DNA of 64,000 nt from a bacterium (GCA_021792615.1 JAJYUJ010000013.1:1-64000), one strand, 5' to 3'. Positions 26,818 to 49,630 are shown, counted from the first letter of the stretch. Notes: a model not told the origin generated them from the sequence alone. Program-made: numbers and translations.

Positions 26818-28374
26818 CTATATCTCCATGACCGGGGGTTCTGCCTTATCCGCTCCATGCTTCGCAGCTTTGACACCTTTCAACACGAAGACAATTGGCA
26901 GGGTTACAAGAAAAGCGAGCGCCATAAACAAAAAAGCATGGTTCGACGCGATCATGAACGCCTGTTTTGTCACCAGCCCGTTGATCAGCGTCAGCGCCTT
27001 TTGCGTCGGCGGATAGACGACAGGGGCATGGGTGAGAGCAGCAGCATGCTTCAAAAGCATAAGGCTTGGGGTATTGTAAACACTGACATTCCTGCCGAGC
27101 ACCTCGTGGTTCAATTGGACATTATTGTCCATCATGGTGGCAAGCATGGCAATGCCTACGGATCCTGCAACCTGCCGGATCAAGTTATACAATCCCGATG
27201 CATCCGTCTTGAACTTGTTCTCAATGGTCAGCAGCGATGACACATTCAGGGAAACAATGATGAATCCAAAGCCTATACCCTGAACAAATTGCGGCCAGAA
27301 TATTTCCCAAAAGCCCATGTCCAGGCTAAGGCTGCCGAGCTGAATGGATGAGATTATCGCCAATACAAAACCGGCGCCAACCAGAAGTTTCGGTCCCAGT
27401 TTGTTGAACAGCTTGCCCGCAAGAGGCATCGCAAAAGCCATTGCAAGCCCCCGTGACATTATTGCAAGGCCTGCATCATACGCAGAATACCCCATGATAT
27501 TCTGGAGGAACATGGGCAGAAGGAAAAGACTGCCGAACATGCCGAGACTAAATACCATGGAAAGAAATGAGTTTGCAGAAAGGTTTATATCTTTCAATAC
27601 TTTTAAATTGACCGCCGGATGTTCTGATACGAGTTCTTTCACAATGAAGAGGATTATGGCAAGCGCCGAAATGACTGTTAGCGCCACGATATAATTCGAA
27701 GAAAACCAGTCTTTGTACTCCCCGTCCGTTAAGACAATCTGCATGGCACCCAGGCCGATGGTAAGAAAGGTTATACCGAACCAATCCACGCCTCCTTTGA
27801 GCTTCTGAATAAAGGGAGGGTCCTCGATAAACATATACAGGAGAACAAGGTTGATGAGACCGATCGGCAGATTGACATAAAACACCCATGGCCATGAGTA
27901 GTTTGTGACGATCCATCCGCCCAGGTAAGGACCTATCGCAGGTCCAAGGACAATGGCAAGGCTGAATATCGCCATTGCAGTTCCCTGCTCTTCCCGTGGA
28001 AACGTTTCGGCGAGGATTGCCTGAGCGAGCGGTATCAGCGCACCACCGCCCATGCCCTGCAAGAGCCGGAACACGACGATAGACGGCAGGTCCCATGCAA
28101 CGCCGCACAATAAGGAGCTCACCGTGAACAGGAGGACCGACAGCATGTAATAGTTTTTCCTCCCAAAAAGCGAACTGAAAAAACCTACCAGCGGCATCAG
28201 TACGACACCGGAGAGCATATAGCCGGTTATCACCCAGGTTATTTCTTCTATGGACGCCGACATGGACCCTTTGATATAGGGCAATGCCACGTTGACAACG
28301 CTCATATCTATACTGAAGAGCGTTGTGCTCGGGATGACCGCTAAGGTCACAAGCCATTTGTTGGTTTTCGTCAT
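26818..28374 (-). CDS. emrB: MFS multidrug transporter, DHA2 / EmrB type
   Basis: The 518-residue protein has 14 predicted membrane helices and the DHA2 signatures: SMSVVNVALPYI in helix 1, LFGRKNYYML in loop 2-3, LLQGMGGGALIPLAQAIL, and FPREEQGTAMAIFSLAIVLGPAIGPYLGGWI (antiporter motif C). It should export drugs or acids with proton uptake, working with the EmrA-like and TolC-like proteins encoded just upstream. Last gene of the TolC-EmrA-EmrB operon. Confidence 0.92.
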   Translation of the reverse strand: MTKTNKWLVTLAVIPSTTLFSIDMSVVNVALPYIKGSMSASIEEITWVITGYMLSGVVLMPLVGFFSSLFGRKNYYMLSVLLFTVSSLLCGVAWDLPSIVVFRLLQGMGGGALIPLAQAILAETFPREEQGTAMAIFSLAIVLGPAIGPYLGGWIVTNYSWPWVFYVNLPIGLINLVLLYMFIEDPPFIQKLKGGVDWFGITFLTIGLGAMQIVLTDGEYKDWFSSNYIVALTVISALAIILFIVKELVSEHPAVNLKVLKDINLSANSFLSMVFSLGMFGSLFLLPMFLQNIMGYSAYDAGLAIMSRGLAMAFAMPLAGKLFNKLGPKLLVGAGFVLAIISSIQLGSLSLDMGFWEIFWPQFVQGIGFGFIIVSLNVSSLLTIENKFKTDASGLYNLIRQVAGSVGIAMLATMMDNNVQLNHEVLGRNVSVYNTPSLMLLKHAAALTHAPVVYPPTQKALTLINGLVTKQAFMIASNHAFLFMALAFLVTLPIVFVLKGVKAAKHGADKAEPPVMEI

Positions 28375-28387
28375 TGTTTTTTCCCGG

Positions 28388-29476
28388 TTACTGTTCTATC
28401 CGCACATACGGATAAACCGACAACCCCGGATACAGGGGTGTATCCACAGAAGATACACGATCCAGAACAATCTTTACCGGTACCCTCTGTACGACCTTGA
28501 TAAAGTTACCGGTTGCGTTCTCGGGCGGCAACAGACTGAATGCGGAACCACTGCCCGATTGAAAGCTTGCAACATGACCTTTGAATGTCTTACCCGGATA
28601 TGCATCAACTTTAATGATAACCGGCGCTCCGATCTTTATCTTGTTCAGATCTGTTTCTTTGAAATTGGCTACAATCCATACATTGTCGAGGTCCACGACA
28701 CTCAGATAGGGAATGCCGGGCATAACATACGTACCGGGGTTTACGTTCTTTTTGGTAACATAGCCGGCACATGGGGCATAAACCGTTGTCCTTTGCAGAT
28801 TGATGAGAGCCAATTTATATCCGGACTCGAGTGCCTTCGTGACCAGTGCCTTCGTTTTTAGCCCCTCTTTTAAATTTTGAACGCTGGTTTGCAGTTGCAT
28901 GATATTTGCCTGATCTACCTTCACCTTTGCAGAACTCACCTCGAACTTTGTTTGCATTTCATCGTAAGAAAGCCTGGAAACTGCATTATCTTTCCACAGG
29001 TTTGCATATCGCCGTGCGTTTTCTTCATTCAGGGTATTCATCGCGGTATCGGCCTTCAACTCATACCGGGCTTTCAAAAGCATTTGCTTTTGCATGGCTA
29101 TGGACAAGGCTAATTGTTTGAGTTCGTTAGTGTTTGCCTCATACTGTGCCTGTGCCTTGTTTGTGTTTTCGGCATAATCGGAGGTATCGATGGTAAATAA
29201 CGGATCCCCCTGCTTCACGTATTGATTGTCGTGAATGAATACCTTGAGCACCTGGCCTTTTACCTGCGGTGCAACCGGAACAATAGCACTGCTTCCCTCT
29301 ACAAAGGCATCATCCGTATCCACATGGGTAAACATAAACCGAATATGAGGAATCTCTGCTATCGATACTATGAGAATAACTATCGCTGAGACAATCAATA
29401 TTATTTTTCTTTTTGACCTGTTGTGCGGCTTCTTCAAAGGTTCTTTTGAATTGCTTTCCGTGTTTTTATTTTCCAT
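28388..29476 (-). CDS. emrA: EmrA/HlyD-type periplasmic adaptor
   Basis: The 362-residue adaptor has one N-terminal membrane helix (IILIVSAIVILIVSIAEI), a barrel-sandwich lipoyl half (VKGQVLKVFIHDNQYVKQGDPLF), a long coiled-coil hairpin and the matching half TTVYAPCAGYVTKKNVNPGTYV. It bridges the EmrB pump and a TolC-like channel. It overlaps the outer-membrane channel gene by 11 bases and has a GGGAGG ribosome site. Confidence 0.93.
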   Translation of the reverse strand: MENKNTESNSKEPLKKPHNRSKRKIILIVSAIVILIVSIAEIPHIRFMFTHVDTDDAFVEGSSAIVPVAPQVKGQVLKVFIHDNQYVKQGDPLFTIDTSDYAENTNKAQAQYEANTNELKQLALSIAMQKQMLLKARYELKADTAMNTLNEENARRYANLWKDNAVSRLSYDEMQTKFEVSSAKVKVDQANIMQLQTSVQNLKEGLKTKALVTKALESGYKLALINLQRTTVYAPCAGYVTKKNVNPGTYVMPGIPYLSVVDLDNVWIVANFKETDLNKIKIGAPVIIKVDAYPGKTFKGHVASFQSGSGSAFSLLPPENATGNFIKVVQRVPVKIVLDRVSSVDTPLYPGLSVYPYVRIEQ

Positions 29477-30845
29477 AATCGTTCCTCCCTAAACTTCTTT
29501 CAAGTTTTGCCAGGCTTATTTCATAACCATACAGTGCATTGTAATAATTAAGTTCAGCCTGTGTAAGATATGTTTGTGCATCCAAAACCTCCGTGGATGT
29601 GACCAGTTGCTGCCCGTATTGAAGGTTTGTTATCCGGTAGTTTTCTTTTGCCTGTGCGAGTGCCGTTTCCGAAGTGCTGATGTCCTGCGCTGCTGTGTCC
29701 AGCTCTATAAGATTACTCCGGACCTGAAGTTTTACCGCGTTCATAAACGCATGGAGCTGGTTTATTATTGCTGACTTGGTATAATCCGCCTGTTGTGCAT
29801 TATCGTTCGTCTTGAGCCAGTTGAATATCGTCCATTTTATACCGATGCCGACCATCTGATTGTATTGATTCTGGTACTCATTGCGTGCCGCAAAGCCGTC
29901 TTGCCCTGCCTGGGTATATGCAGCGAATGCAAAGATGTGCGGGTAATATTCGCTCTCCGCAAGCTTTACGTGCGTAGCTGCCTGCTGTACCCGAATACCC
30001 AATGCCTTGAGTTCGGGTCTGTTCTGCAGCGCTTCATCCGTCAATGAAGCAGGATCGTAGCTTGCTGCAGTCACGGATGTAATATCTTCCAACTGTACGT
30101 TCCTGGCAAGATCCCTGTTTAATAGTGTATTGAAGTTTGCTCTTGCAATATTCAGATTTGCTTCTGCCTGAGACTTGAATTGAACTGCATCTGCCAGTGC
30201 AACCTGCGATTTGAGCTGGTCATTGTACGCTACAATGCCCCGGTCATAAAAATGCCGTGCCTCATGTACATGTGATGTCAGTTGTTCTACCCGCTCATCG
30301 GCAACCTGTACTTGTTTCTGAGCGCGAAGAACATTAAAATACGCAATCTTCACCTCTTCCCCGATATCGAGAATAGCCTCCTCACGCTGGACCATGGTTA
30401 CGTCGATACCCAGATCGGCAAGTTTTCGCTGATTGAAGAGTGCGAAGCCGGTAAAGATCGGCTGTTTCAACTCGATCTCCCAGTTTATCAATGCGGTTCC
30501 GTTCATATACATGCGGGGCGGAAGGTAAACGTAATCGCCATTTGGTTTCCCGCCGTTCAAAACCGGCAATGGCCGGTGCGGTATTTGCAGGTACGGTTGA
30601 TTCTTTAGTCCCACGGCGCTGTATTCAAAGGAAAGCTCCGGAAGCATACTCGCGGTTGCACTCCGCCTCTGCGCCTGTGCGGCTTTGATCTGATCCACGG
30701 TGCCCTGGATAAGATAATTATTGTGAATCGCCTCCTGAATGGCCGAATCAAGCGAATACAGGTCGTCCGCCCTTATCTGCATGGAGAATGCCGTGAGCGC
30801 AACAACGATAAGGAAAACCGATAGAGCATATGTTTTTATCTGCAT
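29466..30845 (-). CDS. TolC-family outer-membrane efflux protein
   Basis: The 459-residue protein has a signal peptide (ALSVFLIVVALTAFSMQIRA) and the two-repeat TolC pattern of long helices and short strands (AIQEAIHNNYLIQGTVDQIKAAQAQRRSA; ENYRITNLQYGQQLVTSTEVLDAQTYLTQAELNYYNALYGYEISLAKLERSLG). It forms the exit duct for the EmrAB pump encoded downstream. A TetR operator lies about 60 bases before its start. Confidence 0.93.
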   Translation of the reverse strand: MQIKTYALSVFLIVVALTAFSMQIRADDLYSLDSAIQEAIHNNYLIQGTVDQIKAAQAQRRSATASMLPELSFEYSAVGLKNQPYLQIPHRPLPVLNGGKPNGDYVYLPPRMYMNGTALINWEIELKQPIFTGFALFNQRKLADLGIDVTMVQREEAILDIGEEVKIAYFNVLRAQKQVQVADERVEQLTSHVHEARHFYDRGIVAYNDQLKSQVALADAVQFKSQAEANLNIARANFNTLLNRDLARNVQLEDITSVTAASYDPASLTDEALQNRPELKALGIRVQQAATHVKLAESEYYPHIFAFAAYTQAGQDGFAARNEYQNQYNQMVGIGIKWTIFNWLKTNDNAQQADYTKSAIINQLHAFMNAVKLQVRSNLIELDTAAQDISTSETALAQAKENYRITNLQYGQQLVTSTEVLDAQTYLTQAELNYYNALYGYEISLAKLERSLGRNDYGK

Positions 30846-30904: not shown

Positions 30905-30924
30905 ATGTAATCGTTTACTTACAT
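30905..30924. promoter_or_regulatory. TetR operator in front of the efflux operon
   Basis: ATGTAATCGTTTACTTACAT lies inside a larger perfect inverted repeat (TAATATGTAA...TTACATATTA, 30901-30928). The same 20-bp sequence with three changes occurs at 31565 in front of the TetR gene. Confidence 0.72.
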
Positions 30925-30965: not shown

Positions 30966-31556
30966 TTACTTAGACATCATGCGCTGCATCAAAAAGAACA
31001 TTCTTTTGCAGAAGCCGTGCATATCGAATCTGTCTTCGTTCAGAATGAGCTCTATGTTCAGAGTAATGGGAATGCCCATGTAGATAGTTGCAATATCATC
31101 CACAGCGAGCTTCTTGTTCCATAGACCCTCGGTCATCCCGTCCCGTATAATCTTGCTGATCAGGGATTTCTGTTCGGAGAGTATTTCGTGTAAATTTTCC
31201 TTCAGTTCCTTATCGTTCATGTGAGCTGCTTCTGAGAAGAGAAGTATGGTGATACCTTTGTTTTCAATCAGATATTTCACATGCCTGCAAAGGAAGGCTG
31301 ATAATCTTTTCTCCGATCCGTCGGCATCCAGGGTAATCTTCCTCAGTTCGCCGATAAGACCGATTTTTACGTCCTGCATGATGCCGAGCATGATGTCCCG
31401 TTTTGACTTGAAATGGCGGAATATCGCACCTTCTGTAATGCCGACCCTTTTCGCCAGGTTCCTCGTTGACAGTTGATCCAGCCCGTCCGTGAAGATAATG
31501 TCCAGTACTGCCTTTTTAATCTGTTCCTGCCTGATTTCGGTTGTTTGTCTTTCCAT
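30966..31556 (-). CDS. TetR-family repressor, probable regulator of the TolC-EmrAB operon
   Basis: The 196-residue protein has the TetR DNA-binding domain: QIKKAVLDIIFTDGLDQLSTRNLAKRVGITEGAIFRHFKSKRDIMLGI, and an all-helical ligand domain. It lies directly upstream of the efflux operon on the same strand. Matching operators at 30905 and 31565 suggest control of both its own gene and the pump. The ATG at 31556 is used; an upstream ATG would lie in the operator. It has no ribosome site, so the mRNA may be leaderless. Confidence 0.9.
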   Translation of the reverse strand: MERQTTEIRQEQIKKAVLDIIFTDGLDQLSTRNLAKRVGITEGAIFRHFKSKRDIMLGIMQDVKIGLIGELRKITLDADGSEKRLSAFLCRHVKYLIENKGITILLFSEAAHMNDKELKENLHEILSEQKSLISKIIRDGMTEGLWNKKLAVDDIATIYMGIPITLNIELILNEDRFDMHGFCKRMFFLMQRMMSK

Positions 31557-31564
31557 AGCATTAC

Positions 31565-31584
31565 ATATAATCACTTACTTACAT
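31565..31584. promoter_or_regulatory. TetR operator upstream of its own gene
   Basis: ATATAATCACTTACTTACAT matches the operator at 30905 in 17 of 20 positions and ends 9 bases before the TetR start codon, as expected for autorepression. Confidence 0.7.
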
Positions 31585-31688: not shown

Positions 31689-32633
31689 TTATTGTTTTAT
31701 ATCCCAAAATTGCGGCATGCCGTCGGCACCCATGGGCTGATGGCCACTGAGATGGCAATTATAGCATGATGCGTTAGACAGAGTGCGGTTCGTCGTTGTG
31801 TCCGAGAAGCCGTGGCAGTAGGCACATACCGGCAGGGCGGCATGTGCCGGATCGATCCGTGCCTGTGTGGCACCGATGATGTTTATATGACTCTGGTGAA
31901 GCCCATTGCTGACTGATGGATCAAACACATGACAGTCCGTGCACTCTGCGATATGCCCGTGACGCGGCCCGTCCCAATTATGGCATCCGCCGCACCCTGC
32001 GCTTAAATGGCGTATCGCAAGATCCGGATTATCCTGTGTGATCCTGAATCCTGAAAGATAAATGCCGGTGTGTGCAGTTTGAACAGAGGTCAACAGTGTG
32101 TAGGGGTCGAGCGTTCCATAGTAGGTCGGTGTCGTGCCTGTGCTGGATGAAAAACCGGCACTCTGAACATCCCCCTCGAGCCATGTATGACAGTTGCCTG
32201 CACAGTTTATACCTCCGCTATATAAATACCTTAATGCCTGTGCCGGGTATTCACTGTTGCTGTGATTCTCGATATTGTTGTAGATAGGATGGCATTGGGC
32301 GCAATCGTTGGTGTTCAGATCAAAAGGATGTCTTCCCCTGAGCGGCCACTCGATTATAAACAAATAAAGCGGAGGCGGGCTATAGGGTTGTATCATGACC
32401 AGACCGCTGCTGCCTGTCTGCATCCATTCTTTAATTCCGAGTGCTTCGTTGGAACGTGACATGCTTATCAGATAGGGATCGTGGCAATCATAGCAGCTTA
32501 CCGCATTTGATTGCACGGTTTTTGTTGTCTGACATCCTATGTTTGCTACTGTCACGACGGCAAGCATGGCCAATAACAAAATCCGGTAACCTTGATAGAA
32601 TTTTATGTTTTTTGTAAAGGTATATCCAGCCAT
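31689..32633 (-). CDS. Multihaem c-type cytochrome lipoprotein
   Basis: The 314-residue protein has a lipoprotein signal (VTVANIGC) and seven haem-attachment motifs: CYDCH, CAQCH, CGGCH, CTDCH, CAYCH and CYNCH plus one unusual CAGNCH with three intervening residues. Such proteins carry electrons in the periplasm or at the outer membrane. It is the third gene after a GMC dehydrogenase and its Tat-exported small subunit, so it is the probable electron acceptor of that enzyme. Histidines elsewhere could serve as second axial ligands. Confidence 0.88.
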   Translation of the reverse strand: MAGYTFTKNIKFYQGYRILLLAMLAVVTVANIGCQTTKTVQSNAVSCYDCHDPYLISMSRSNEALGIKEWMQTGSSGLVMIQPYSPPPLYLFIIEWPLRGRHPFDLNTNDCAQCHPIYNNIENHSNSEYPAQALRYLYSGGINCAGNCHTWLEGDVQSAGFSSSTGTTPTYYGTLDPYTLLTSVQTAHTGIYLSGFRITQDNPDLAIRHLSAGCGGCHNWDGPRHGHIAECTDCHVFDPSVSNGLHQSHINIIGATQARIDPAHAALPVCAYCHGFSDTTTNRTLSNASCYNCHLSGHQPMGADGMPQFWDIKQ

Positions 32634-32653
32634 TTATTTACTATTCCCTGTAT

Positions 32654-33265
32654 CTACGGCAGATTTCCGTCCGACGTCATTTCATTCGACATAGGTTTAT
32701 AAAAGCTGAATTCCTGGTTTCTGTAGCCCAGATTCGGACCCGGGTCACCCATGTACTCCATGCCGAGGGTACTGATAATACCGATATAAAACGGCCCCTT
32801 CAGAAACATGTATATTTGATCGATCAACCCGAGTATGGTTTCGCTGTTTTTCAGCACTGTGGTTCTCTGGGCAAGATCAAGCTCGTACAACGGCTTGCCG
32901 AATTCCTTCTGCGCCTCGGCATTGAACAGCGGAAGCACGAGTGGCAGTTCCTGAACAACGCCATAAAACTTGTCATAAGCGAAATCCATGGTCCCCACAT
33001 CGACTGCGCCCGGAGCACCGCTGGGATCCGAGGTCCTTCCGGGAAGTACAGTGTCACATAAAGCGTACACGGTCTTCTCGTCCGCTGTCTGCGGGACCAT
33101 GTACGGGGTCGACTGGAGACCCGTCTCCGGAACTGTGCCGCAGCTGATCTGGTCCATCAGACCGAACATGGATAGAACAACAGATGCCTGTGCTATCCAC
33201 TTGAAAAATTCCCGTCTGTTCAATTCCCGCTGTATCGCATCGTCAATAAGTTTTGTAATATCCAT
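32654..33265 (-). CDS. Tat-exported small subunit of a GMC dehydrogenase (gluconate 2-dehydrogenase subunit 3-like)
   Basis: The 203-residue protein begins with a twin-arginine signal (NRREFFKWIAQASVVLSMFG) and then has the pattern DEKTVYALCDTVLPG and AYDKFYGVVQELPLVLPLFN, which resembles subunit 3 of gluconate/alcohol dehydrogenases. The catalytic GMC protein just upstream has no signal of its own, so this subunit could carry it through the Tat pore in a hitch-hiker manner, as known for that family. Start six bases after the GMC stop. Confidence 0.78.
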   Translation of the reverse strand: MDITKLIDDAIQRELNRREFFKWIAQASVVLSMFGLMDQISCGTVPETGLQSTPYMVPQTADEKTVYALCDTVLPGRTSDPSGAPGAVDVGTMDFAYDKFYGVVQELPLVLPLFNAEAQKEFGKPLYELDLAQRTTVLKNSETILGLIDQIYMFLKGPFYIGIISTLGMEYMGDPGPNLGYRNQEFSFYKPMSNEMTSDGNLP

Positions 33266-33271
33266 ATATCC

Positions 33272-34699
33272 CTACCAGTTCGCCACGATATACTGTGCAA
33301 TACGCTCTGCGTTTGCCGCTATGGTCGTCGAAGGGTTAACGCCTGTACCACAGGGAATAGAGCTTGAATCCGAAACAAACAATCCCGGATAGTTCCGTAT
33401 CTGCCCGTTCCCATCTGCAACAGAGCGTGCCGGATCGTCTCCCATCCTGCACGTGCCGAGCATGTGATCTATGGAATACATATAACCGGTTGGCATGGTC
33501 TGGAGCAGGAATGCATTGTTTGCCGTGGCAAGCGCCTGGATCGGGGCGATCTTACCGCTGATGTAATTCGAGAGGTTCTTCGTCAACGGGAAATGCACGG
33601 AAGGAAGATTGTTGTTGTTCAGGTATACATAGCCTTCACCGGTCACCGGCCCCATGATGTTTGCGATGATCAATTTCGAGGGATACACGGAGTGCGCCCA
33701 TTGCTTGAAGTCGAGTCCCCAGCCAAGTTCACCCTCCCTGTGGATATTCAGGGTAAATATCGATGCCGGCGATGTGCCTGCCTCAATGGTAATGCCGTAA
33801 TCTTTCCAGTAGGCATAGGTCATTACCCCGGCACTATCCATGCCCTTATAGCATTCTATAGAGGGAAGGCCGTCCGGCAGCTCAATGCCGAAGCGTACGC
33901 CTCCGTTGTTGTTAAAATTCTGGCCAACCTGGTCTGATAACTGTGGAAGGGATTGCTTTGATCGCAGCAGCAGCTCCGGTGAATAGATCGCGCCTGCCGC
34001 AAGGATGACGATGGTCCCCTGTACCGTGGACAGCGTGTCATCAGGTCCGACATACTGTACCGTGTAACCTGCACTCGCCGGAGAAACCTGCATTGCCCTG
34101 CATCCTGTCCTGAATTCTACACCAGCTGCCTGCGCCTGCGGTATATAATTATGCATCAGCGATTGTTTTGCCCCGTAGATGCAGCCTGCCTCGCAGTAAC
34201 CGCATTGTCTGCAATTCACATAGGGAAACCGTGCACGGTCGCAGGTCAGGCCGACATTGTCCAGCAGCTTCGCAAACATACCGCCGGTCTTTGATACCTC
34301 ATCCCATGTCGCCTGACGAATTTGCATCATGCTCTCGACCATATCGTAATAGGGATCAAGCACCTGTCTTGTTATTGCATCGGGCCACACCTTGTAGCCG
34401 TTGTAATCTGTAAACTGAAACGTTTCCGAAGGCGATCTGTTCATGAGCCCCGAGAACACGACAGAGCCTCCTCCCAGCACCATGCCGGATCGAAAGAACG
34501 TTGCATAATCATCGGATGTGGTTATGCTGAGGAGATTGGATAGATATTTGAGGTCCCACGATTGTTTGAAGTCCTGTTCCGTGTAAACTCTGCCCTGTTC
34601 AAGCACAAGCACCTTTTTGTTTGCCTGGGCTAGCCGGAGAGCCGGGATAGATCCGCCAAACCCGGAACCAACAATGACAACATCAAACGTATTTGCCAT
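33272..34699 (-). CDS. GMC-family FAD-dependent alcohol/sterol-type dehydrogenase
   Basis: The 475-residue flavoprotein has the FAD motif VVIVGSGFGGSIPALRLAQANKKVLVLEQG, the GMC region VLGGGSVVFSGLMNR, and the C-terminal HMLGTCRMGDDPARSVAD and NPSTTIAANAERIAQYI blocks. A cysteine cluster CRQCGYCEAGCIYGAK at about residues 165-180 resembles that of cholesterol-oxidase-like and long-chain alcohol dehydrogenases. With the Tat subunit and the multihaem cytochrome it forms a periplasmic oxidation module whose substrate (alcohol, sterol or sugar) is unknown. The mRNA may be leaderless: no ribosome site, and a promoter with TATAAT 10 bases ahead. Confidence 0.88.
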   Translation of the reverse strand: MANTFDVVIVGSGFGGSIPALRLAQANKKVLVLEQGRVYTEQDFKQSWDLKYLSNLLSITTSDDYATFFRSGMVLGGGSVVFSGLMNRSPSETFQFTDYNGYKVWPDAITRQVLDPYYDMVESMMQIRQATWDEVSKTGGMFAKLLDNVGLTCDRARFPYVNCRQCGYCEAGCIYGAKQSLMHNYIPQAQAAGVEFRTGCRAMQVSPASAGYTVQYVGPDDTLSTVQGTIVILAAGAIYSPELLLRSKQSLPQLSDQVGQNFNNNGGVRFGIELPDGLPSIECYKGMDSAGVMTYAYWKDYGITIEAGTSPASIFTLNIHREGELGWGLDFKQWAHSVYPSKLIIANIMGPVTGEGYVYLNNNNLPSVHFPLTKNLSNYISGKIAPIQALATANNAFLLQTMPTGYMYSIDHMLGTCRMGDDPARSVADGNGQIRNYPGLFVSDSSSIPCGTGVNPSTTIAANAERIAQYIVANW

Positions 34700-34822: not shown

Positions 34823-35437
34823 TTAACCGGCCATCAACTTTTCCTGGCACGGGATGCATACCTTTAATCCATCGTAGATGCGTCCGTATTTCTCAACCAC
34901 CATATCCCCGCATTGCTCACATACAAATGATGCAAACGATTCTTTACCTTTTTCAACTTCATATTCGAAAATTGGGCTTATCGTCATAAGTTGCTCATCC
35001 GCCTCATCCATTACCATTTCTATTAACGGTTCCACTACTTTAGCCGGTACTTTTGAAGCAGGAACACCTTTCTCCCGATAGTCTTTAAAGAATTCCGTTT
35101 TCTTTGTCGCTACCTGCACCTCTGCCTTCGGGACTACCCGTACAGCCCTTTTATTGGCCACATCTATAAGGGTCAGTCCGAACTTTCCATAGCCGAGCTG
35201 ATGAATATTCCCTTTACCGAACGTACAGCCGGTTATTACCTGTATTCCATCTGCAAAGCAGTGAGAGCAATGGGAATCTCCGAGTTCAACAAGGGCTATA
35301 AGCTGGCCGTCTGTTGCACGTTCTACTCCCAATGCGTTCATTGCTGCTGCACCTACCCTAAGTCCGAGTGGCATTGCAGGACACTTGTGTCCATGAAGCT
35401 TAAAACCTGTTTCAAGATATTCTCTTGGTTTGATCAT
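34823..35437 (-). CDS. FmdE-family protein with C-terminal zinc ribbon (copy 1)
   Basis: The 204-residue protein carries the FmdE core: FKLHGHKCPAMPLGLRVGAAAM (GHxCP), ELGDSHCSHCFADGIQVITGCTFGKGN, and a late zinc ribbon (CEQCG...CIPC). Despite the name, FmdE homologues occur in many non-methanogens and their role is unsettled; the Cys/His cluster suggests metal or sulfur ligand binding. It ends an operon fmdE-porin-TauE/SafE-fmdE whose promoter carries an ArsR-type operator. The start at 35437 has GGGAGG eight bases ahead; the ATG two codons earlier is too close to it. Confidence 0.85.
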   Translation of the reverse strand: MIKPREYLETGFKLHGHKCPAMPLGLRVGAAAMNALGVERATDGQLIALVELGDSHCSHCFADGIQVITGCTFGKGNIHQLGYGKFGLTLIDVANKRAVRVVPKAEVQVATKKTEFFKDYREKGVPASKVPAKVVEPLIEMVMDEADEQLMTISPIFEYEVEKGKESFASFVCEQCGDMVVEKYGRIYDGLKVCIPCQEKLMAG

Positions 35438-35571
35438 AATCATATCCTCCCTTTATTTTTTAATTTTAGTTCCTTTAATTTAAGCGTCTATCTTCGCATC
35501 GTTAAAAACTCTTTTCCCTTTTATAGGTTATGCTCCCTTGAGGGAAAGAATAATTGGGATTATCGTAATTT

Positions 35572-36324
35572 TCATTTTACGAGCAGCCCCAACATCATTT
35601 TCCCCGCAATGCCTAGCAGCACAATACCGATGATAAGCTTCACCTGTTTTCTTTTGAGTTTAGCCGTCATGAGCCATGCACCCAAAACAGCTCCAAGGGC
35701 AGAGGCAATTGCAGTGAACCCAAACAATTTAATATCAATACTACCAAGCGTTGCATGTCCTAAAAATCCTGATAAAGAAGAAAAGATAACAATAAATGCG
35801 GTGGTCGCAGATGCCTTTTTGGGGTTAATTCCCATCCATACAAGTACAGGAATAATGATATTCCCTCCGCCTACACCAAGCAGGCCGCCAAGATATCCTG
35901 CAACCGCTCCTATAGAGATGCCGTAGAAAAGCTGTTTATTCCTTGAACTTTCAATGTCCCTTTCTTCCGGTTCATAAAAAAGCATCATGAAACCTGCAAA
36001 CAGAAGGAACCCGACAAACAACCATTTCAGTATGTGATCGTTGAGCCCTTGGCTTACATAAGCCCCAACAGGCGACAGTGCTGTTGCGACAATGAGTATT
36101 GGTATTGCCACTTTCCAAAGTACCAGTTTTGCTTTTATATAGCTGTACGAAGCAAAAGACATTGCAATAGAATTCAACAACAGTGCAACTGCCATTGCTA
36201 CATGAATATCTATATGCAGGGCAATAAACACAGGTATTAATATAAAAGCAGCTCCCACGCCTGCAATGGTAAGTAAGGCTGTACATGCAAAGGTTATTAG
36301 ACCTGCTACAAGAGCTGTCGTCAT
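35572..36324 (-). CDS. TauE/SafE (TSUP) family sulfur-anion or organic-anion exporter
   Basis: The 250-residue membrane protein has eight hydrophobic segments in two repeats, with the family-type glycine-rich AGYLGGLLGVGGGNIIIPVLVWMG and the matching AGVGAAFILIPVFIALHI. TSUP proteins export sulfite, sulfoacetate or related anions. It lies between a porin and an FmdE gene in the same operon, suggesting removal or uptake of a sulfur or arsenic oxyanion; the substrate is a guess. Confidence 0.88.
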   Translation of the reverse strand: MTTALVAGLITFACTALLTIAGVGAAFILIPVFIALHIDIHVAMAVALLLNSIAMSFASYSYIKAKLVLWKVAIPILIVATALSPVGAYVSQGLNDHILKWLFVGFLLFAGFMMLFYEPEERDIESSRNKQLFYGISIGAVAGYLGGLLGVGGGNIIIPVLVWMGINPKKASATTAFIVIFSSLSGFLGHATLGSIDIKLFGFTAIASALGAVLGAWLMTAKLKRKQVKLIIGIVLLGIAGKMMLGLLVK

Positions 36325-36339
36325 TTCAATATACCTATT

Positions 36340-37425
36340 TTAAAACATTACCTGTAATTGAATTCTGGCTATGTCCGTATTGTTTGCCTCAAGCTTGCCG
36401 AACCGTTCAAAGGTGTAATCCGCCATAAGCTTGAACTTGTTTCCAGCAATGTAATAGTTCAACCCTGCTGTAAGCCACTTTGCATTCTTTGATGATTCTG
36501 CATACGTATCGGGATTGAATGTCTGATACTCTACTATGGGCTGAATGTAACGCGTTACAAAGTAAGCTGCCTGCAGATAATATCCATCGGATGTTACGGA
36601 TTTTATCTTAGCCTCGGCACTCGTAAGGATCGCCCTTATATACTCACCGATAAATGTAAATCCATTATAGGTGATCTCTCCGTCAATATTGTACCGGAAA
36701 TCCGTGCCGGTAAATGGCAGGCTGCTGTTGATTATATTACTCAGATTGGTTAAGCCATATGCCTTGCGGTATGAGACAGAGGTCCCGATACCGATTCCAG
36801 GGACACCATTCGCAGCATTTTCTTTCAGTGGCGTACCGACAACCCTCGCGACAGTAAGAAAGTTGCTATTTGTATTATGCGAAGGTATAGTGTTGGCACC
36901 GGTGCCGTTATACAAACCAACGGCATACTCAAAATACGTATTCAGCACATCTCCCTTTGCCTCGATACCAATGTCCCGCGCAAGCGTTTGTGATGACGGA
37001 ACAAGGTTGTTCGATATGAGCGAACGCTCTATTGTATCGATTTGCCAATCCGGCGTAAGCCTTTCCCTTCCGAATGGCGGTACCATCTGACCTGCAACAA
37101 TTTGTGCAAACGTAAACCTGTCATACACGACATAGGCATCCTGAAGCTGCGGAGACGGCAGGTCACTCCTGCCGACGAACTGAAACCGGTAGGTTACGTG
37201 ATCCGCTGCCGTGCCGGTTAAGATCACCTTTGCCCGTCTAATTTGAAACCCGTCACCGGTAAATGTTTTTGCTGCAGGGCCTATGTTCCCGTACGTTCCC
37301 CGCACCTGAATATATGCTGAAACGTCGGGTATTAGGCTTTTCGGTATTGCCTGCTGGTCCGCTGCTGCTGCGGATACAAAAGCACCGAGTATCAACAAAA
37401 TACCTATATGTGCCTTCAAAGGCAT
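36340..37425 (-). CDS. Porin of the phosphate-selective O/P type (second copy in window)
   Basis: The 361-residue protein has a signal peptide ending ASAAAA-DQ, the block DGFQIRRAKVILTGTAADHVTYRFQFVG and QDAYVVYDRFTFAQIVAGQMVPPFGRERL, and a C-terminal strand ending ARIQLQVMF with terminal Phe. It should be an outer-membrane anion pore and is the second gene of the fmdE-porin-TauE-fmdE operon. AAGGAG precedes the start. Confidence 0.85.
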   Translation of the reverse strand: MPLKAHIGILLILGAFVSAAAADQQAIPKSLIPDVSAYIQVRGTYGNIGPAAKTFTGDGFQIRRAKVILTGTAADHVTYRFQFVGRSDLPSPQLQDAYVVYDRFTFAQIVAGQMVPPFGRERLTPDWQIDTIERSLISNNLVPSSQTLARDIGIEAKGDVLNTYFEYAVGLYNGTGANTIPSHNTNSNFLTVARVVGTPLKENAANGVPGIGIGTSVSYRKAYGLTNLSNIINSSLPFTGTDFRYNIDGEITYNGFTFIGEYIRAILTSAEAKIKSVTSDGYYLQAAYFVTRYIQPIVEYQTFNPDTYAESSKNAKWLTAGLNYYIAGNKFKLMADYTFERFGKLEANNTDIARIQLQVMF

Positions 37426-37464
37426 AGTATCTCCTTCCCTGTTCTCGAGTGAACCCGGAATAGT

Positions 37465-38088
37465 TTATTTAAGTGGCAAATGGATAATTGTCTCTTCTTT
37501 TGTACGTTCCGAACAAGGTATACAAACAACCCTGTTGTCCTTGTGCCTGAGATACCGTTCAAAAACGTACTCGCCGCAAACTTCGCATTTTGCTTTATTG
37601 AACGAGCTTTTTACCGGTTCATAGTTGAAATCGGGCAACATCTTCACATTGAATAATTCTTCATTTGTTGCATCAAGTACAACTTGTATCACATCATCAA
37701 GCACCTTTTCCGGTATATCAGAAGGTTCAATCCCCTGCTTGCGATAATTGAAAAACTCATGGGTTGACAGTTTGTCACTGAATTCGTTTTTCAATGCGAT
37801 CCTGACCGCGCCTTTCCCGGGATACCAGAAAAGAGCTGCAATCTTCCCATAATTAAGCCTCTCTATCATGCCTTTCCCGAAAGTAGCACCGGTTGCTGAC
37901 ATGATCCCGTCCAGCATACATCCCTGCGGATGGCCGATACCCATCTCGGAAAACACATGCATTTCATGATTCTTGCTTCTTGGTGCCCCGAGTTTCTCCA
38001 GCGCCAGGGAGCCCATCCTGTAGCCTATGGGCATAAATGGACAATTGTGCCCGTGAAACTCGAATGCCCAGTTTGGTATGTTAAACAT
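37465..38088 (-). CDS. FmdE-family protein with C-terminal zinc ribbon (copy 2)
   Basis: The 207-residue protein shares the FmdE layout with copy 1 at 34823: FEFHGHNCPFMPIGYRMG, EMGIGHPQGCMLDGIMSATGATFGKGM and a zinc ribbon (CEVCG...CIPC). In place of the DSHCSHC of copy 1 it has IGHPQGC, so the metal site may differ and the pair may form a heterodimer. It is the first gene of the operon and starts at 38088 behind a strong AAGGAGG; the promoter region has an ArsR-type operator identical in core to that of the arsenic operon. Confidence 0.86.
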   Translation of the reverse strand: MFNIPNWAFEFHGHNCPFMPIGYRMGSLALEKLGAPRSKNHEMHVFSEMGIGHPQGCMLDGIMSATGATFGKGMIERLNYGKIAALFWYPGKGAVRIALKNEFSDKLSTHEFFNYRKQGIEPSDIPEKVLDDVIQVVLDATNEELFNVKMLPDFNYEPVKSSFNKAKCEVCGEYVFERYLRHKDNRVVCIPCSERTKEETIIHLPLK

Positions 38089-38175
38089 TCTTATGTTCCT
38101 CCTTGTTACTTTAAGCAATCTTTTACTTTCATACGGTCAAGACTACCTTCCGTCGCAGTACAGTTTTATATTCCT

Positions 38176-38221
38176 ATATCACGATATAGTGATATAATAT
38201 CCATAATCAGAAACGTGTCAA
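38176..38221 (-). promoter_or_regulatory. Promoter and ArsR-type operator of the FmdE operon
   Basis: On the minus strand TTGACA (38216-38221), 16 bases, then TATTAT (38194-38199). Just after the -10 box lies the inverted repeat ATATCAC-GATATA-GTGATAT (38176-38195). The 37 bases 38169-38205 agree at nearly all positions with the arsR promoter at 49623-49659. The 317 bp between genes also holds a MITE-like end near 38222 (see also 48750) and a hairpin at 38342. Confidence 0.8.
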
Positions 38222-38404: not shown

Positions 38405-38968
38405 CTACTTCACGAACGTGATACCGTAATGATACGGTTTTAAGTCATACCGGGACGGATTATGAAACCCGGCACTCTCCGCCCATCGCATACAATCTTC
38501 CGGTTTCGGGCGAATAGCTAATGAAGGACCTCTTGGCGTTGAAGGATCATGATTCCAATGGATAATCCCTGCTATGCCACCTTTCTTCAATATCCTCCAT
38601 GCCTCGGCCAGCAGTACTGCCGGATTATCGAGGTGGAGGATATTGAAAAGCATGACATAATCCATACTTTCATCCGGTAAACCCGAGCCGTCAGCCATAA
38701 AATCCCGCAAAACGGGATTGATATTATTGAGATGCTGCTTCCTTGCCTTGTCTTCGACCATGCTGATTAAATCAGGCTCGATGTCTATCGCGAAGATCGT
38801 TCCCTGGATTATTTGGGCTGCAGGAAAAGTAAATGTCCCATAACCACAACCGAATTCCGCGACATTCCCTGTTCGAGAAGTCATCCCCAGCGTAGAAAGG
38901 ACACTGCGGGGATCAAAAAACTTTTCCCACATATCCTGCCCCGGCATTCCGCTTTCACGTATTTTCAT
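38405..38968 (-). CDS. Class I SAM-dependent methyltransferase
   Basis: The 187-residue protein has the SAM motif VAEFGCGYGTFTFPAA, an acidic strand end AIDIEPDLISMV, and the motif DYVMLFNILHLDNPAVLLAEAWRILKKGG. The substrate is unknown. It lies 40 bases after a DsrE-like gene and close to metal-resistance genes; the three-cysteine set of ArsM arsenite methyltransferases is not present, so ArsM is unlikely. A fragment of its 5' end is duplicated at 40171. Confidence 0.85.
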   Translation of the reverse strand: MKIRESGMPGQDMWEKFFDPRSVLSTLGMTSRTGNVAEFGCGYGTFTFPAAQIIQGTIFAIDIEPDLISMVEDKARKQHLNNINPVLRDFMADGSGLPDESMDYVMLFNILHLDNPAVLLAEAWRILKKGGIAGIIHWNHDPSTPRGPSLAIRPKPEDCMRWAESAGFHNPSRYDLKPYHYGITFVK

Positions 38969-39008
38969 TTTATTGAATCGATCCTCTTGAATTCAGAACA
39001 TGCATCAA

Positions 39009-39362
39009 TCAAAACGTGAACACTTTATCGGCCTCGACAGACCATTGGGCAAGCTCTGCCATAGTGCTGATCTCTGCCCCGTCGACAAGCTGAAGATTTG
39101 CAATACCCCGGGCATTTGCGCACGTTCCGCATGCTTTGAACTTTCCACCTTTGCTTATGACAGATTTTACCATGCGCTCTATGTTGTAATAGCCCTGTGC
39201 AGTTATCTGATCTGCCAGTGCACAATATACCGAGTCTGCCATTAAAAACACATTCACCTGTACTTCGGGATGGTCTTTTTGAAAAGCCATCGCAAGCCGC
39301 AATGCATTGTAAGATTTCTCGTTTCCGTACGGAGCATCATTGAGAACAATCAAAACTTTCAT
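39009..39362 (-). CDS. DsrE/DsrF-like sulfur-relay family protein
   Basis: The 117-residue protein is of DsrE type: KVLIVLNDAPYGNEKSYNALRLA at the start and the cysteine motif GKFKACGTCANARGI, where one cysteine is the likely persulfide carrier. Such proteins move sulfane sulfur between partners. It sits among an SQR-like oxidoreductase, TauE/SafE and FmdE genes, so a role in sulfur handling fits. GGGAGG precedes the start, and a promoter at 39438-39466 (minus strand) serves it. Confidence 0.88.
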   Translation of the reverse strand: MKVLIVLNDAPYGNEKSYNALRLAMAFQKDHPEVQVNVFLMADSVYCALADQITAQGYYNIERMVKSVISKGGKFKACGTCANARGIANLQLVDGAEISTMAELAQWSVEADKVFTF

Positions 39363-39437
39363 TTTTCCTCCCTGTTATTTTAAATTCTTTTCAGTCCATC
39401 ATCGTTCTTGAATTGTCACGACATCTTTTCTTAAAAA

Positions 39438-39466
39438 AATATATAGCATACATCACGAACATGCAA
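39438..39466 (-). promoter_or_regulatory. Sigma-70 promoter for the DsrE-methyltransferase unit
   Basis: On the minus strand, TTGCAT and TATATT are 17 bases apart. It is back to back with the promoter at 39486. Confidence 0.5.
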
Positions 39467-39485
39467 TAAAAGTTTGTTCATTCGT

Positions 39486-39515
39486 TTGACACTTTTCGTA
39501 TCCGCACCCTATGCT
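39486..39515 (+). promoter_or_regulatory. Sigma-70 promoter leading directly into a methyltransferase gene
   Basis: TTGACA (39486-39491), 18 bases, TATGCT (39510-39515). The transcription start is predicted at the start codon (39516-39522), so the message is likely leaderless. Confidence 0.55.
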
Positions 39516-39521
39516 ATGGTT

Positions 39522-40169
39522 ATGGCGTGGGAGGTCTTTACAGAAAAAGCTCAAGAGTATGATAACTGGTTCGACCGGCATTTCGGCGCCGGTGCATTTG
39601 CCCTTGAACTGAAATCCATAAAAAATATTCTAAAAAAGATCCCTGACGATTCCCTGGAAATTGGAGTCGGCACGGGCAGGTTCGCACGTTCGCTTGGCAT
39701 ACGATTCGGCATAGATCCTTCTGCCGCGGTACTGGAATATGCAAAAAAAAGAGGCATACGGGCCGCACGGGCGGCAGCCGAGTCACTTCCTTTTCCTGCA
39801 TCCGATTTTTCCGCTGTGTTTATGATAGTGACCGTATGTTTTCTCGATAACCCTCTTCAGGCGTTTGCAGAAGCAAACAGGGTCCTCAGGCCGGATGGTG
39901 TGCTTGTCCTCGGACTAATCCTGAGAGATTCAAGATGGGGCGAGTTCTATGAGCGCAAAAAGGCGTCCGGAAATGCATTCTATAAGCACGCGCACTTCTG
40001 GGGAAAAGATGAATTGTTCAATGCCCTCGATAAAACGGGCTTTAAGGTCACAGATTCGATATCAACCCTGTTTGATCCCCCCGGCTCGCTGATGATTATA
40101 AATCAAAAGATACAAACAGGTATTCATCCCGAAGCAGGGTTCCATTCTATCGTTGCAAGAAAAGTTTAG
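39522..40169 (+). CDS. Class I SAM-dependent methyltransferase (UbiE/MenG-like)
   Basis: The 215-residue protein has the SAM motif LEIGVGTGRFARSLG, a second motif PSAAVLEYAKKRGI, and LPFPASDFSAVFMIVTVCFLDNPLQAFAEANRVLRPDGVLVLG. The N-terminus EKAQEYDNWFDRHFGAGAFALEL resembles methyltransferases with small-molecule substrates. The ATG at 39522 is chosen because of the promoter position; 39516 is an alternative. No ribosome site is seen. Divergent to the DsrE gene. Confidence 0.85.
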   Translation: MAWEVFTEKAQEYDNWFDRHFGAGAFALELKSIKNILKKIPDDSLEIGVGTGRFARSLGIRFGIDPSAAVLEYAKKRGIRAARAAAESLPFPASDFSAVFMIVTVCFLDNPLQAFAEANRVLRPDGVLVLGLILRDSRWGEFYERKKASGNAFYKHAHFWGKDELFNALDKTGFKVTDSISTLFDPPGSLMIINQKIQTGIHPEAGFHSIVARKV

Positions 40170-40170
40170 A

Positions 40171-40242
40171 TGGATAGTGCGGGGATCGAGAACCTTGTTT
40201 TCCTATCTCCCGGGCCGGCATCCCGCTCTCACGAATCTTCAT
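40171..40242 (-). pseudogene. Fragment of a methyltransferase 5' end (duplicate of 38890-38968 region)
   Basis: On the minus strand it reads MKIRESGMP, then diverges, and later has the DNA GATCCCCGCA found at the same place in the gene at 38405-38968 (start MKIRESGMPGQDMW, then DPRSVL). The copy stops after about 72 bases at the end of the plus-strand methyltransferase. It looks like a decayed partial duplication. Confidence 0.6.
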
Positions 40243-40287
40243 TTTTACCAAAAACTCTTTATTCCATCTCCGTATTATGAATCACTC

Positions 40288-41526
40288 TTATAGCTTAACC
40301 GGCACCTTGTAAATCTTTGTTCCTGCATTCAACACATGCCGGAAGATACTGCCTCTCGTCGTAAGGGGAGCAAGCCACCACTTCTCGAAGAGTACCCTGC
40401 CGATATGCCATCTCATCCCTGCTTTACGGAGCAAAACCTGCGGGTGAGGCTCTGCCATAAAGTTTCCGTATGCGAGCCCTGCGACACCTTGACCTGCTTC
40501 AATGATACAATACCCTGTGCCTGAAAACTGTGCTGCAGGTTTCCCGTGATTTATTGCAGCAACAATCTGACCCGCAACAATCTCGCCCTCTGCATGTGCA
40601 AAAACGCCTGCCTTGGGCAGCGCCATGGATACTTCGGGGTTCCATCTGCCCGGGATGCTGAGAGAAGTTATATCGCCTACGGCAAAAACACCTTCATAGT
40701 TAGCCTTAAGCGTAGCGCTGTCAACCGGTATCCAGCCCGCCTCGTTTGTAATCCCTGCGTTCACTGCCACTGCTGGCGCACGGTGCGGCGGGATCGCAAT
40801 AAGCATATCGTAATGGACAGGTGTTTTGCCTTCAAAACGAAGTTCCTTGTTTTCAGCATCAACGGATGCGAGTTTGTGGAAAGGATAAAACTTTATCCCC
40901 CTTGACTCAGTCATTTGCTTGAGTACCCCGCCTAATTGAGGACCTGCAACAGGCATGGGCTGGGATTCTGGTGTAAACAGGTGAATATATACTTTCTGGC
41001 TTTGCGATCGCCGCTGGAGAAACGATGAAATGAGCATCGCTGCCTCGTGGGGTGCACCGGGACATTTATACGGCATGGAGCTTACAACAAGCGCTATATC
41101 CCCGCCTTTAAAGTTTTTGAGCGCCTCATGCAGCTTGCGGGCTCCATCCAAGGTGTAGAACGTATGTGCGTTGTCCATTAAGCCGGGAATAAGCTCGGAT
41201 CTCAGATCCGCACCAATCGCTATGACAAGATAATCATAATTGAACGGCCTTTGTTTTGTCTTAACAACCTTTTTTGCACAATCAATATCGGTCGCTTCAT
41301 CAATAACTATTTCAATGCCCTGACGAACAAGAGAACGGATATCTCTTGTGATCTGCCCTGACGTCCTGTAACCGGTCATCACCCACGGGAACGATGGGGC
41401 AAAGGTATGATCTCGATTCTTCTCTATAAGAACAATCCTGTGTTCCTGCCCAAGTTGAAGCCTCATTGAATTGGCAGCGATTAACCCGCCAACCCCTCCT
41501 CCAAGGACTACGATGGTCTGTCCCAT
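40288..41526 (-). CDS. Sulfide:quinone-reductase-like FAD oxidoreductase
   Basis: The 412-residue flavoprotein has the FAD motif VVLGGGVGGLIAANSMR, the SQR-type MPYKCPGAPHEAAML with its redox cysteine, GVFAVGDITSL and a later cysteine in GYCIIEAGQG. It probably oxidises sulfide or a related thiol at the membrane surface. Its start lies at the stop of an ArsR-type gene (ATGA overlap at 41529-41532), so both are one operon; 41526 is used as start because GGAG is eight bases ahead, 41532 being possible. Confidence 0.85.
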   Translation of the reverse strand: MGQTIVVLGGGVGGLIAANSMRLQLGQEHRIVLIEKNRDHTFAPSFPWVMTGYRTSGQITRDIRSLVRQGIEIVIDEATDIDCAKKVVKTKQRPFNYDYLVIAIGADLRSELIPGLMDNAHTFYTLDGARKLHEALKNFKGGDIALVVSSMPYKCPGAPHEAAMLISSFLQRRSQSQKVYIHLFTPESQPMPVAGPQLGGVLKQMTESRGIKFYPFHKLASVDAENKELRFEGKTPVHYDMLIAIPPHRAPAVAVNAGITNEAGWIPVDSATLKANYEGVFAVGDITSLSIPGRWNPEVSMALPKAGVFAHAEGEIVAGQIVAAINHGKPAAQFSGTGYCIIEAGQGVAGLAYGNFMAEPHPQVLLRKAGMRWHIGRVLFEKWWLAPLTTRGSIFRHVLNAGTKIYKVPVKL

Positions 41527-41528
41527 TA

Positions 41529-41861
41529 TCATTTCTCCTTTTGCGCCTGATCCATCAGCAAATGCCCTCTTTTCATATGATGTTCCAATAGGACCTCTCT
41601 CATCAGATTACAGGCACGTGCAATTTTTGGGCTTGTAATTCGATAATAGACATTCAGTCCTTCCCGCCTCGCATTGAGGACCCCCGCCTTACGCATGACG
41701 GCAAGATGCTGCGAGACGTTTGCCTTCGGTATACCCATTTGCTTCACGATATCGCCTGCAGCGGCTTCCTTATCTTTCAGTATGTGCACTATCTCCAGAC
41801 GCTTTGCATGAGCAAGCGCCTTGCAAACATCCGCATGGAGCTGGAATATCCGTTTATTCAT
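41529..41861 (-). CDS. ArsR-family repressor upstream of the SQR-like gene
   Basis: The 110-residue protein has the ArsR fold: CKALAHAKRLEIVHILKDKEAAAGDIVKQMGIPKANVSQHLAVMRKAGVLNARREGLNVYYRI. It lacks the CVC metal motif of classical ArsR; instead it has single cysteines at residues 13 and 84. Two such distant cysteines are reminiscent of persulfide sensors SqrR/BigR, which fits the SQR-like partner gene. An inverted repeat upstream (41887-41914) is its likely operator. Confidence 0.87.
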   Translation of the reverse strand: MNKRIFQLHADVCKALAHAKRLEIVHILKDKEAAAGDIVKQMGIPKANVSQHLAVMRKAGVLNARREGLNVYYRITSPKIARACNLMREVLLEHHMKRGHLLMDQAQKEK

Positions 41862-44856: not shown

Positions 44857-45912
44857 CTAAACAGTCCCTTTTTTGAAGAGCCGGTATTCTGACTTTCTTG
44901 CGAACCAGACCAGCACGAGCATGACCGGCACTTCGATAAGCGGACCGATGACCGTTGCAAGGGCAACGGTGGGGTTGAATGCGGTTATGGCTATTGCAAT
45001 AGCTATCTCAAAGTCCCTGCCTGTAGAGTTGAATGCAACTGCAACAGAATCTTCGTAATTTAACTTTAGCCTCCAGCTCACGAGATAAACCACGACAAAC
45101 ATCGTCCAGAAAAATAGGACCATAGGTACTGCCATCTGAACTATGAAAAAAGGCTTCTTCAGGATCAGATCTCCTTTCAGGGCAAACATAACGATAAGGG
45201 TAAAAAGAAGCCCGACGATGGACAAGGTATCCAGATAAAATTTCAGTTTATTGAACCACGCTTCTCCAAACCTCTTTACACCCAATACTCTCGTCAGCAT
45301 ACCTGCGACAAGCGGGACACCGAGATACAGCAGCACGCTCTCCCCAACAACCCAGACATCAAAATGGACATTGCCGAGCAAAAGTTTTGCGTAGACCGGG
45401 ATCAGCAGCATTTGAATGATGGAATTCACGGCTACGAGTATTATTGCAAGCGGAGCATTGCCCTGTGCAAGGTAGGTAAACACGATCACCATTGCTATAC
45501 ACGGCGCAAGCCCATAGAGAACAAGCCCCGTGTACAGGTCAGGCTCACTGCCCAAAAAAATCCTTGCAAGCAAAAGCATAAAGAATGGGGCTATCGCATA
45601 GTTGAAAAACAGTACGATGAGAAGCTGTTTTGGCGATCGTGCAGCCTTGCCGAGGTCTTCAAACTTAATGTTTGCCATCGCTGGATATATCATCATGAAA
45701 AGACCGATAACGACCCCGAGTGCAAGGGTATTGGGAAGGTTAAACGCGTATATTCCGTGGAATATGGCTTTGATAGCGTCGATCGGTGGCGTCAGCACAA
45801 AATTGGAAATTCCGTATAACCTGCCGATACCGATGCCGATTGCCATGCTTACGATAACAAAGACCGGCAGCAGCCTGAAGTCGTGCAATTTTTCAAGAAG
45901 CCTCCTCGTCAT
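44857..45912 (-). CDS. acr3: Arsenite efflux permease ACR3
   Basis: The 351-residue protein has ten hydrophobic segments and ACR3 marks: GLAPCIAMVIVF with the essential cysteine, NSIIQMLLIPV and TGRDFEIAIAIAITAF with the conserved glutamate. It exports As(III), here perhaps driven by the ArsA ATPase encoded upstream. The ATG at 45912 has AAAGGAAA ahead; an upstream part of the frame lies in a repeat. Last gene of the ars operon. Confidence 0.94.
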   Translation of the reverse strand: MTRRLLEKLHDFRLLPVFVIVSMAIGIGIGRLYGISNFVLTPPIDAIKAIFHGIYAFNLPNTLALGVVIGLFMMIYPAMANIKFEDLGKAARSPKQLLIVLFFNYAIAPFFMLLLARIFLGSEPDLYTGLVLYGLAPCIAMVIVFTYLAQGNAPLAIILVAVNSIIQMLLIPVYAKLLLGNVHFDVWVVGESVLLYLGVPLVAGMLTRVLGVKRFGEAWFNKLKFYLDTLSIVGLLFTLIVMFALKGDLILKKPFFIVQMAVPMVLFFWTMFVVVYLVSWRLKLNYEDSVAVAFNSTGRDFEIAIAIAITAFNPTVALATVIGPLIEVPVMLVLVWFARKSEYRLFKKGTV

Positions 45913-45942
45913 TTCATATTTCCTTTGCTTTATCCCTTTTCT

Positions 45943-46010
45943 GTCATTCCGTGCTTGACTTAGCCTGCCCCGCACCTGATGCGGGGGAATCCAGTTTTTT
46001 TCTGGATTCC
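45943..46010. repeat. GGATTCC...GGAATGAC repeat overlapping the arsC 3' end
   Basis: GTCATTCC (45943-45950), a GCCCCGCACC/TGCGGGG hairpin and GGAATCCAG (45986-45994), then CTGGATTCC (46002-46010). The last 20 or so codons and the stop of arsC are read from it. Confidence 0.65.
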
Positions 46011-48317: not shown

Positions 48318-48385
48318 TGCCTGTTCTACTTTTCTGATAAAATTTCCTGTTTTCAAACGCAGGAAGAACTTCGATCTTTACATGA

Positions 48386-49617: not shown

Positions 49618-49630
49618 ATTTGTATTCCTT

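Follow-up and report, generated by a model that had tools for sequence, protein, structure and literature searches.

An operon of two FmdE-family proteins, a porin and a TSUP carrier shares a putative ArsR operator with an ars operon

Proteins of the FmdE family (PF02663) are widespread, were named after methanogen operons and have solved structures but, to our knowledge, no established role outside methanogens. The family name is uninformative on function. The TSUP carriers, to which TauE and SafE belong, take their name from sulfite and taurine-derived sulfonates. FmdE proteins of solved structure bind zinc or nickel, genes for metal transporters adjoin the majority of FmdE genes, and a regulatory role was suggested for the family in the structure paper (PMC2954224). 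In arsenic resistance, ArsR is able to act outside its own operon (PMC7965956), and mechanisms of thioarsenate resistance are expected to exist, as yet unverified, according to a large review on the ars genes (PMC6205960). Full-text searches of an open-access collection, which lacks most subscription papers, turned up no description of an FmdE-TSUP unit, of a part played by FmdE in arsenic resistance, or of TauE in connection with arsenic.

The operon described here lies in a window of 64,000 nucleotides of bacterial DNA (GCA_021792615.1, JAJYUJ010000013.1:1-64000). Four genes on the minus strand (34823-38088) code, in 5' to 3' order, for FmdE-b, a porin, a TSUP/TauE carrier and FmdE-a. They are spaced by 39 bp (FmdE-b/porin), 15 bp (porin/TSUP) and 128 bp (TSUP/FmdE-a), and each has a plausible start codon. 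FmdE-b (207 aa, 37465-38088) starts at an ATG at position 38088 with GGAGG upstream. Its gene is followed by that of an outer-membrane porin of the Porin_O_P family (36340-37425; Pfam 77.9 bits), whose amino terminus features a hydrophobic stretch that, read by eye, resembles a signal peptide. Then come the genes of the TSUP/TauE-family inner-membrane carrier (35572-36324; Pfam TauE 150.5 bits, full length, 3-237/237) and of FmdE-a (206 aa, 34823-35443). Inspection by eye gave no signal peptide in either FmdE protein. The PF02663 profile yields 101.3 and 96.3 bits for the two copies (cut-off 22.9), all four Pfam assignments (FmdE twice, TauE, Porin_O_P) exceed their cut-offs, and the genome has no FmdE gene besides these two. 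The gene order and the Pfam matches bear out the preliminary description of an operon in which two FmdE proteins flank a porin and a TSUP exporter. The four-gene operon is a genuine, conserved unit; it is new in its combination and regulation, its component families being already known.

The regulation of the operon is suggested by the 22-bp palindrome TATATCACGATATAGTGATATA (38175-38196) found upstream of FmdE-b. It is overlapped by the -10 element of a sigma-70-type promoter, TTGACA-16-TATTAT (38194-38221, minus strand, 11/12 matches), which is the sole near-perfect promoter of the region. A second copy (49629-49650) is positioned 12 bp upstream of arsR. Allowing up to 3 mismatches, the search of the 2.54-Mb genome found exactly these 2 sites and no other copy; there were 0 matches in the reversed sequence and 0 in random sequence of 4 times the genome size. 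The arsR gene (49219-49617), whose product carries the LCVCQ As(III)-sensor motif, heads an ars operon on the minus strand coding ArsD (48882-49229; 128.9 bits, cut-off 90), an IscA/HesB-like protein (48386-48733), the ArsA ATPase (46476-48356), a thioredoxin-type ArsC (45944-46462; 157.6 bits, below the cut-off of 174.3) and an ACR3-like arsenite efflux carrier (44857-45975; 260.7 bits, below the cut-off of 282.8). Across related genomes of this phylum (n=9) the palindrome occurs at 18 sites, in 7 genomes. Four sites precede FmdE-b (in G000, G002, G004 and G006, which are all the genomes whose available sequence includes FmdE-b together with its upstream region) and 14/18 adjoin arsR, arsC-ACR3, arsM, arsD, or DUF169 genes that neighbour an ACR3-like gene. 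Every full-length ArsR adjoining these sites has the LCVCQ motif. Position and conservation thus point to the palindrome as a putative ArsR operator, and since it is common to the FmdE-b promoter and arsR and is kept in kin, the FmdE operon is very probably part of the regulon of the arsenite-type ArsR. One genome counts against an arsenic role: the porin-TSUP cassette of G001, with FmdE-a and a third type of FmdE, has neither FmdE-b nor the palindrome.

Two further gene arrangements were seen at palindromes of this type. A DUF169 gene and a 127-aa partner lie directly behind one, beside an ACR3-like gene (L128:9885-10643, L124:3704-4453); these DUF169 genes are candidates for a further arsenic gene. 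A gene for a TOTE conflict-system primase-helicase (L129:1894-4098) immediately precedes an arsC-ACR3 unit headed by the palindrome, and a like gene is found in L123.

A second regulator gene, tetR (30966-31574, minus strand), is located about 6 kb from the first gene of the operon. Its product has 55-64% identity to the TetR proteins encoded at the head of the Bacteroidota FmdE cassettes. The TetR operator is found upstream of tetR (31568-31583, minus strand; exact match to TGTAAGTAAGTGATTA), and a further copy lies between tetR and the TolC gene (30908-30923, minus strand). A TolC-HlyD-MFS efflux pump (26818-30845, minus strand) stands under the same TetR operators; the arrangement of tetR with this pump recurs in L019, L033 and L130. 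Cassettes of the Bacteroidota type carry the 16-bp operator GTAAGTAANNGATTAC upstream of tetR, and most of them have it upstream of FmdE-b too; all exact matches in 14 genomes (11/11) are at the cassette. In the phylum of the window the operator precedes tetR and the TolC-HlyD-MFS pump, and also FmdE-b in L019 and, weakly, in L030. The operators and the level of identity place the window TetR in the regulatory family of the Bacteroidota cassette TetRs. The nearest named families of the cassette TetR are FadR- and MtrR-like, which speaks against an arsenic function. In L130, a genome without FmdE, the TetR/TolC-HlyD-MFS unit adjoins an ars operon. A NifX/FeMo-cofactor-binding-like protein is encoded just before FmdE-b or adjoining tetR at several loci (L006:7503-7982, L007:7568, L010:397, L033:2467-2850; for L006 and L033 the domain match was demonstrated). 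The interval between FmdE-a and tetR in the window (31689-34699) codes for a GMC oxidoreductase, a gluconate-dehydrogenase-subunit-3-like protein and a multihaem cytochrome.

The two FmdE proteins share 39% identity. The nearest solved protein to both is 2GVI, a zinc protein of Thermoplasma (E=4.5e-58 for FmdE-b), which is also the best PDB match of the FmdE-a AlphaFold model (pLDDT 93.5, TM 0.82). The core zinc ligands of 2GVI are His16, His18, Cys20 and Cys61 (PMC2954224), and alignment to 2GVI reveals all four in FmdE-a and FmdE-b. In the FmdE alignment H17, H19, C21 and C62, corresponding to the His-x-His-x-Cys zinc site and the distal Cys, are invariant, as are C175, C178, C196 and C199 of the carboxyl-terminal treble-clef finger that characterizes the two-domain subtype. 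The ligands of FmdE-b are found in HGHNC and GHPQGC, and FmdE-b-type proteins (n=21) carry SEMGxxHPQGCM or a near variant. FmdE-a has, besides the four ligands, an invariant extra Cys next to a zinc ligand, in the motif HCxxC, which is present in 19/19 FmdE-a-type proteins. It had been proposed that both copies keep a zinc ribbon and differ in their middle metal motif, DSHCSHC against IGHPQGC. The two motifs are there, but each ends in the Cys61-equivalent ligand, so that the differences lie beside a site whose four ligands are all kept. The supposed zinc ribbon is a treble-clef finger in the solved relatives, and it is of the C4 type in both copies. In the tree the FmdE-b clade has an SH-aLRT support of 100 and the FmdE-a clade a weaker one of 81, and genomes with both types have one of each. 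This distribution indicates that the pair is old and not the result of a recent duplication, and two old paralogue clades with their own signatures are compatible with a mixed FmdE-a/FmdE-b complex. TSUP genes are likewise the neighbours of a third type of FmdE, marked by HGHxCW, xNHxAxCFADG or similar motifs (L014:3137-3742, L026:1465-2073, L037:7962-8573). The finger, together with the role proposed in the structure paper, could suggest that the FmdE proteins act as sensors by way of their zinc finger, regulating the genes of the carrier and the porin and processing no substrate. This is very improbable: operators for ArsR and/or TetR are already present at the cassette, the conserved core cleft with its invariant His58/Cys62 points to ligand chemistry, and a DNA-binding signature was not found in FmdE.

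Kin of FmdE-b are found in Ignavibacteria, Bacteroidota, Kapaibacteria, Kryptoniota and one gamma-proteobacterial bin. The order TetR, FmdE-b, TSUP, porin, FmdE-a is seen in L005, L008, L010, L011, L013, L014, L020 and L090, among others, and FmdE-TSUP without the porin in Citrobacter and Klebsiella plasmids, in Sulfuricella and in the archaeon Halorubrum. The association of FmdE with TauE noted in the preliminary description is not random: profile searches found TSUP within the locus at 24/26 two-domain FmdE loci, at 0/10 other FmdE loci and in 0/20 control regions, with the caveats that similarity to FmdE was the basis on which the loci were chosen, that some of them are of common ancestry, that the controls cover slightly less sequence and that the cassette carrier served as seed for the TSUP profile. 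In the TauE tree the cassette carriers group in a clade of their own (support 94). FmdE is present in about 3% of the genomes of two sampled groups, a sparseness that fits horizontal spread. An FmdE-TSUP pair lies among insertion sequences in L035 (NZ_CP135451.1) and about 19 more enterobacterial plasmids, with genes for an ArsR and for a fusion of CoA-disulfide reductase with rhodanese close by. The Citrobacter pair was absent from the E. coli genomes searched. A two-gene unit (706+473 aa) recurring downstream in Bacteroidota, considered as an enzyme, corresponds to a sensor kinase and a sigma-54 activator.

The neighbours of FmdE bear on what the unit handles. Genes of ars systems are found at 8/26 two-domain FmdE loci against 1/20 controls. 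Against an arsenic role, no ars gene is in view at 18/26 FmdE-TSUP loci, and the frequency of CDF cation pumps (7/26) and of sulfane-sulfur genes (about 10/26) is on a par with that of ars genes. The CDF pumps, missing from the controls (0/20), the FmdE-TSUP-CDF-ZIP arrangement of Halorubrum and the metals and metal transporters known from the family would suit an FmdE that buffers or chaperones zinc (or Cd/Ni) in thiophilic-metal stress, with zinc driven off thiols by arsenite and a counter-anion or thiol ligand leaving through TSUP. Such a function is improbable for the window operon, which has no CDF gene within about 8 kb and is preceded by a putative operator of an As(III)-type ArsR; moreover, TSUP is no cation carrier. 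In Citrobacter amalonaticus Y19 a CDF gene is found between FmdE and TSUP, and all of them adjoin arsRDCA-ACR3.

Sulfur chemistry is the other subject of these surroundings. The sulfane-sulfur neighbours are SQR/CoA-disulfide reductase, rhodanese or OsmC genes and occur in 0/20 control regions. In the window, the operon is preceded by genes (38405-41861) for a methyltransferase (38405), DsrE (39009), a second methyltransferase (39474, plus strand), an SQR-type III-like protein (40288) and an ArsR-family protein (41529). The small methyltransferase gene adjoining FmdE-b (38405-38968) lies beside tetR in L130, and its product has weak matches to named methyltransferases. The genome also carries dsrA, dsrB and an apparent dsrD, the last recognised by eye (L188, G000:C45:118042-120267); an internal TAG considered in dsrA is merely its stop codon, dsrB following in the same frame. 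The genome is probably that of a sulfate or sulfite reducer, an organism that, with dsrABD, probably makes sulfide. The unit might handle sulfur, either as an anion or in sulfane form (sulfite, thiosulfate, persulfide), with the zinc-site Cys of FmdE carrying the sulfur, TSUP exporting the product and arsenic inducing the operon only by disturbing thiol and sulfide pools. The probable sulfide production, the SQR, DsrE and ArsR-family genes directly upstream, the neighbours elsewhere and the name of the TSUP family all speak for this, as does the ligand, not identified, that lies 1.8 A from the zinc-site Cys in 2GVI (PMC2954224). The palindrome, however, is found on ars genes and is absent from the SQR-ArsR unit, and the Y19 plasmid genes are located in an ars island; a sulfur substrate is considered rather unlikely, though less so than metal buffering.

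The reading preferred here is that the operon is an arsenic-inducible detoxification and export unit, to which we give about an even chance. It is the simplest one for arsenite-type control joined to cytosolic FmdE proteins, an inner-membrane TSUP and an outer-membrane porin. Of the earlier proposal that the unit transports and processes an anion of sulfur, selenium or arsenic, the general outline survives, and the palindrome common with the ars operon favours arsenic. ArsR would in all likelihood silence the FmdE operon until As(III) appears, and in relatives a dedicated TetR would do this repression job or add to it. The later steps are less certain. The cytosolic FmdE pair, with its Zn-His2Cys2 cleft and the extra Cys of FmdE-a beside it, may bind a thiophilic arsenic species, or may act on it by adding or transferring sulfur; the anion so formed (arsenite-thiol or thioarsenate-like) may be carried from the cytoplasm by TSUP and may leave the periplasm through the porin. 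Both the Cys at the zinc site and the additional one of FmdE-a would fit a thiophilic metalloid as well as sulfane sulfur. The probable production of sulfide, the SQR and DsrE genes upstream and the sulfane-sulfur neighbours make an arsenic-sulfur anion attractive. It is conceivable, if quite improbable in this specific form, that FmdE-a and FmdE-b are a zinc-thiol enzyme pair passing sulfane sulfur to arsenite to yield thioarsenate, the arsenic analogue of thiosulfate, which the dedicated TSUP and porin would export. If true, this would be an unrecognised route of arsenic detoxification in sulfide-producing bacteria. Transcription in Acidiplasma, where an FmdE transcript is >14-fold lower on sulfur, pyrite and arsenopyrite than on ferrous iron (PMC12524180), speaks mildly against an arsenic role if that gene is orthologous to the window FmdE.

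Comparison with known systems places the locus as follows. With the FmdE of the formylmethanofuran dehydrogenase operon of methanogens the common point is the Pfam family; no Fwd/Fmd subunit gene is found among the annotated neighbours at the loci examined, and a role in methanogenesis or as a subunit of that enzyme was rejected for want of such genes. Ta1109 of Thermoplasma acidophilum (PDB 2GVI, PF02663) has the two-domain fold and the four zinc ligands in common with the window FmdE proteins; it differs in having Asp as the fourth finger ligand, where these are C4, and in lacking the extra His-Cys of FmdE-a. The porin shows a weak likeness to ExtI of selenite/tellurite reduction (NF040900), its 48.6 bits being far under the curated cut-off of 150, and no ext cluster is found among its identified neighbouring genes, so that assignment as a selenite-tellurite porin was discarded. 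With the TauE/SafE carriers, which include sulfite/sulfoacetate exporters and the CstR-linked TauE, the window carrier shares the Pfam TauE domain (150 bits), and its cassette clade differs from the four other TauE proteins of the genome. FmdE and TSUP are absent from the ars gene set in the main text of the large review (PMC6205960). The shared and conserved operator ties PF02663 to the putative arsenite regulon, giving the family a concrete, testable function, and with the FmdE-TSUP genes of enterobacterial plasmids the question reaches cultivable hosts. The accessory genes of ars systems (arsP, arsM, arsJ, arsK and others) are under ArsR, and the FmdE operon likewise shares the putative operator of arsR; the FmdE-TSUP-porin module would thereby join the list of arsenic-responsive genes.
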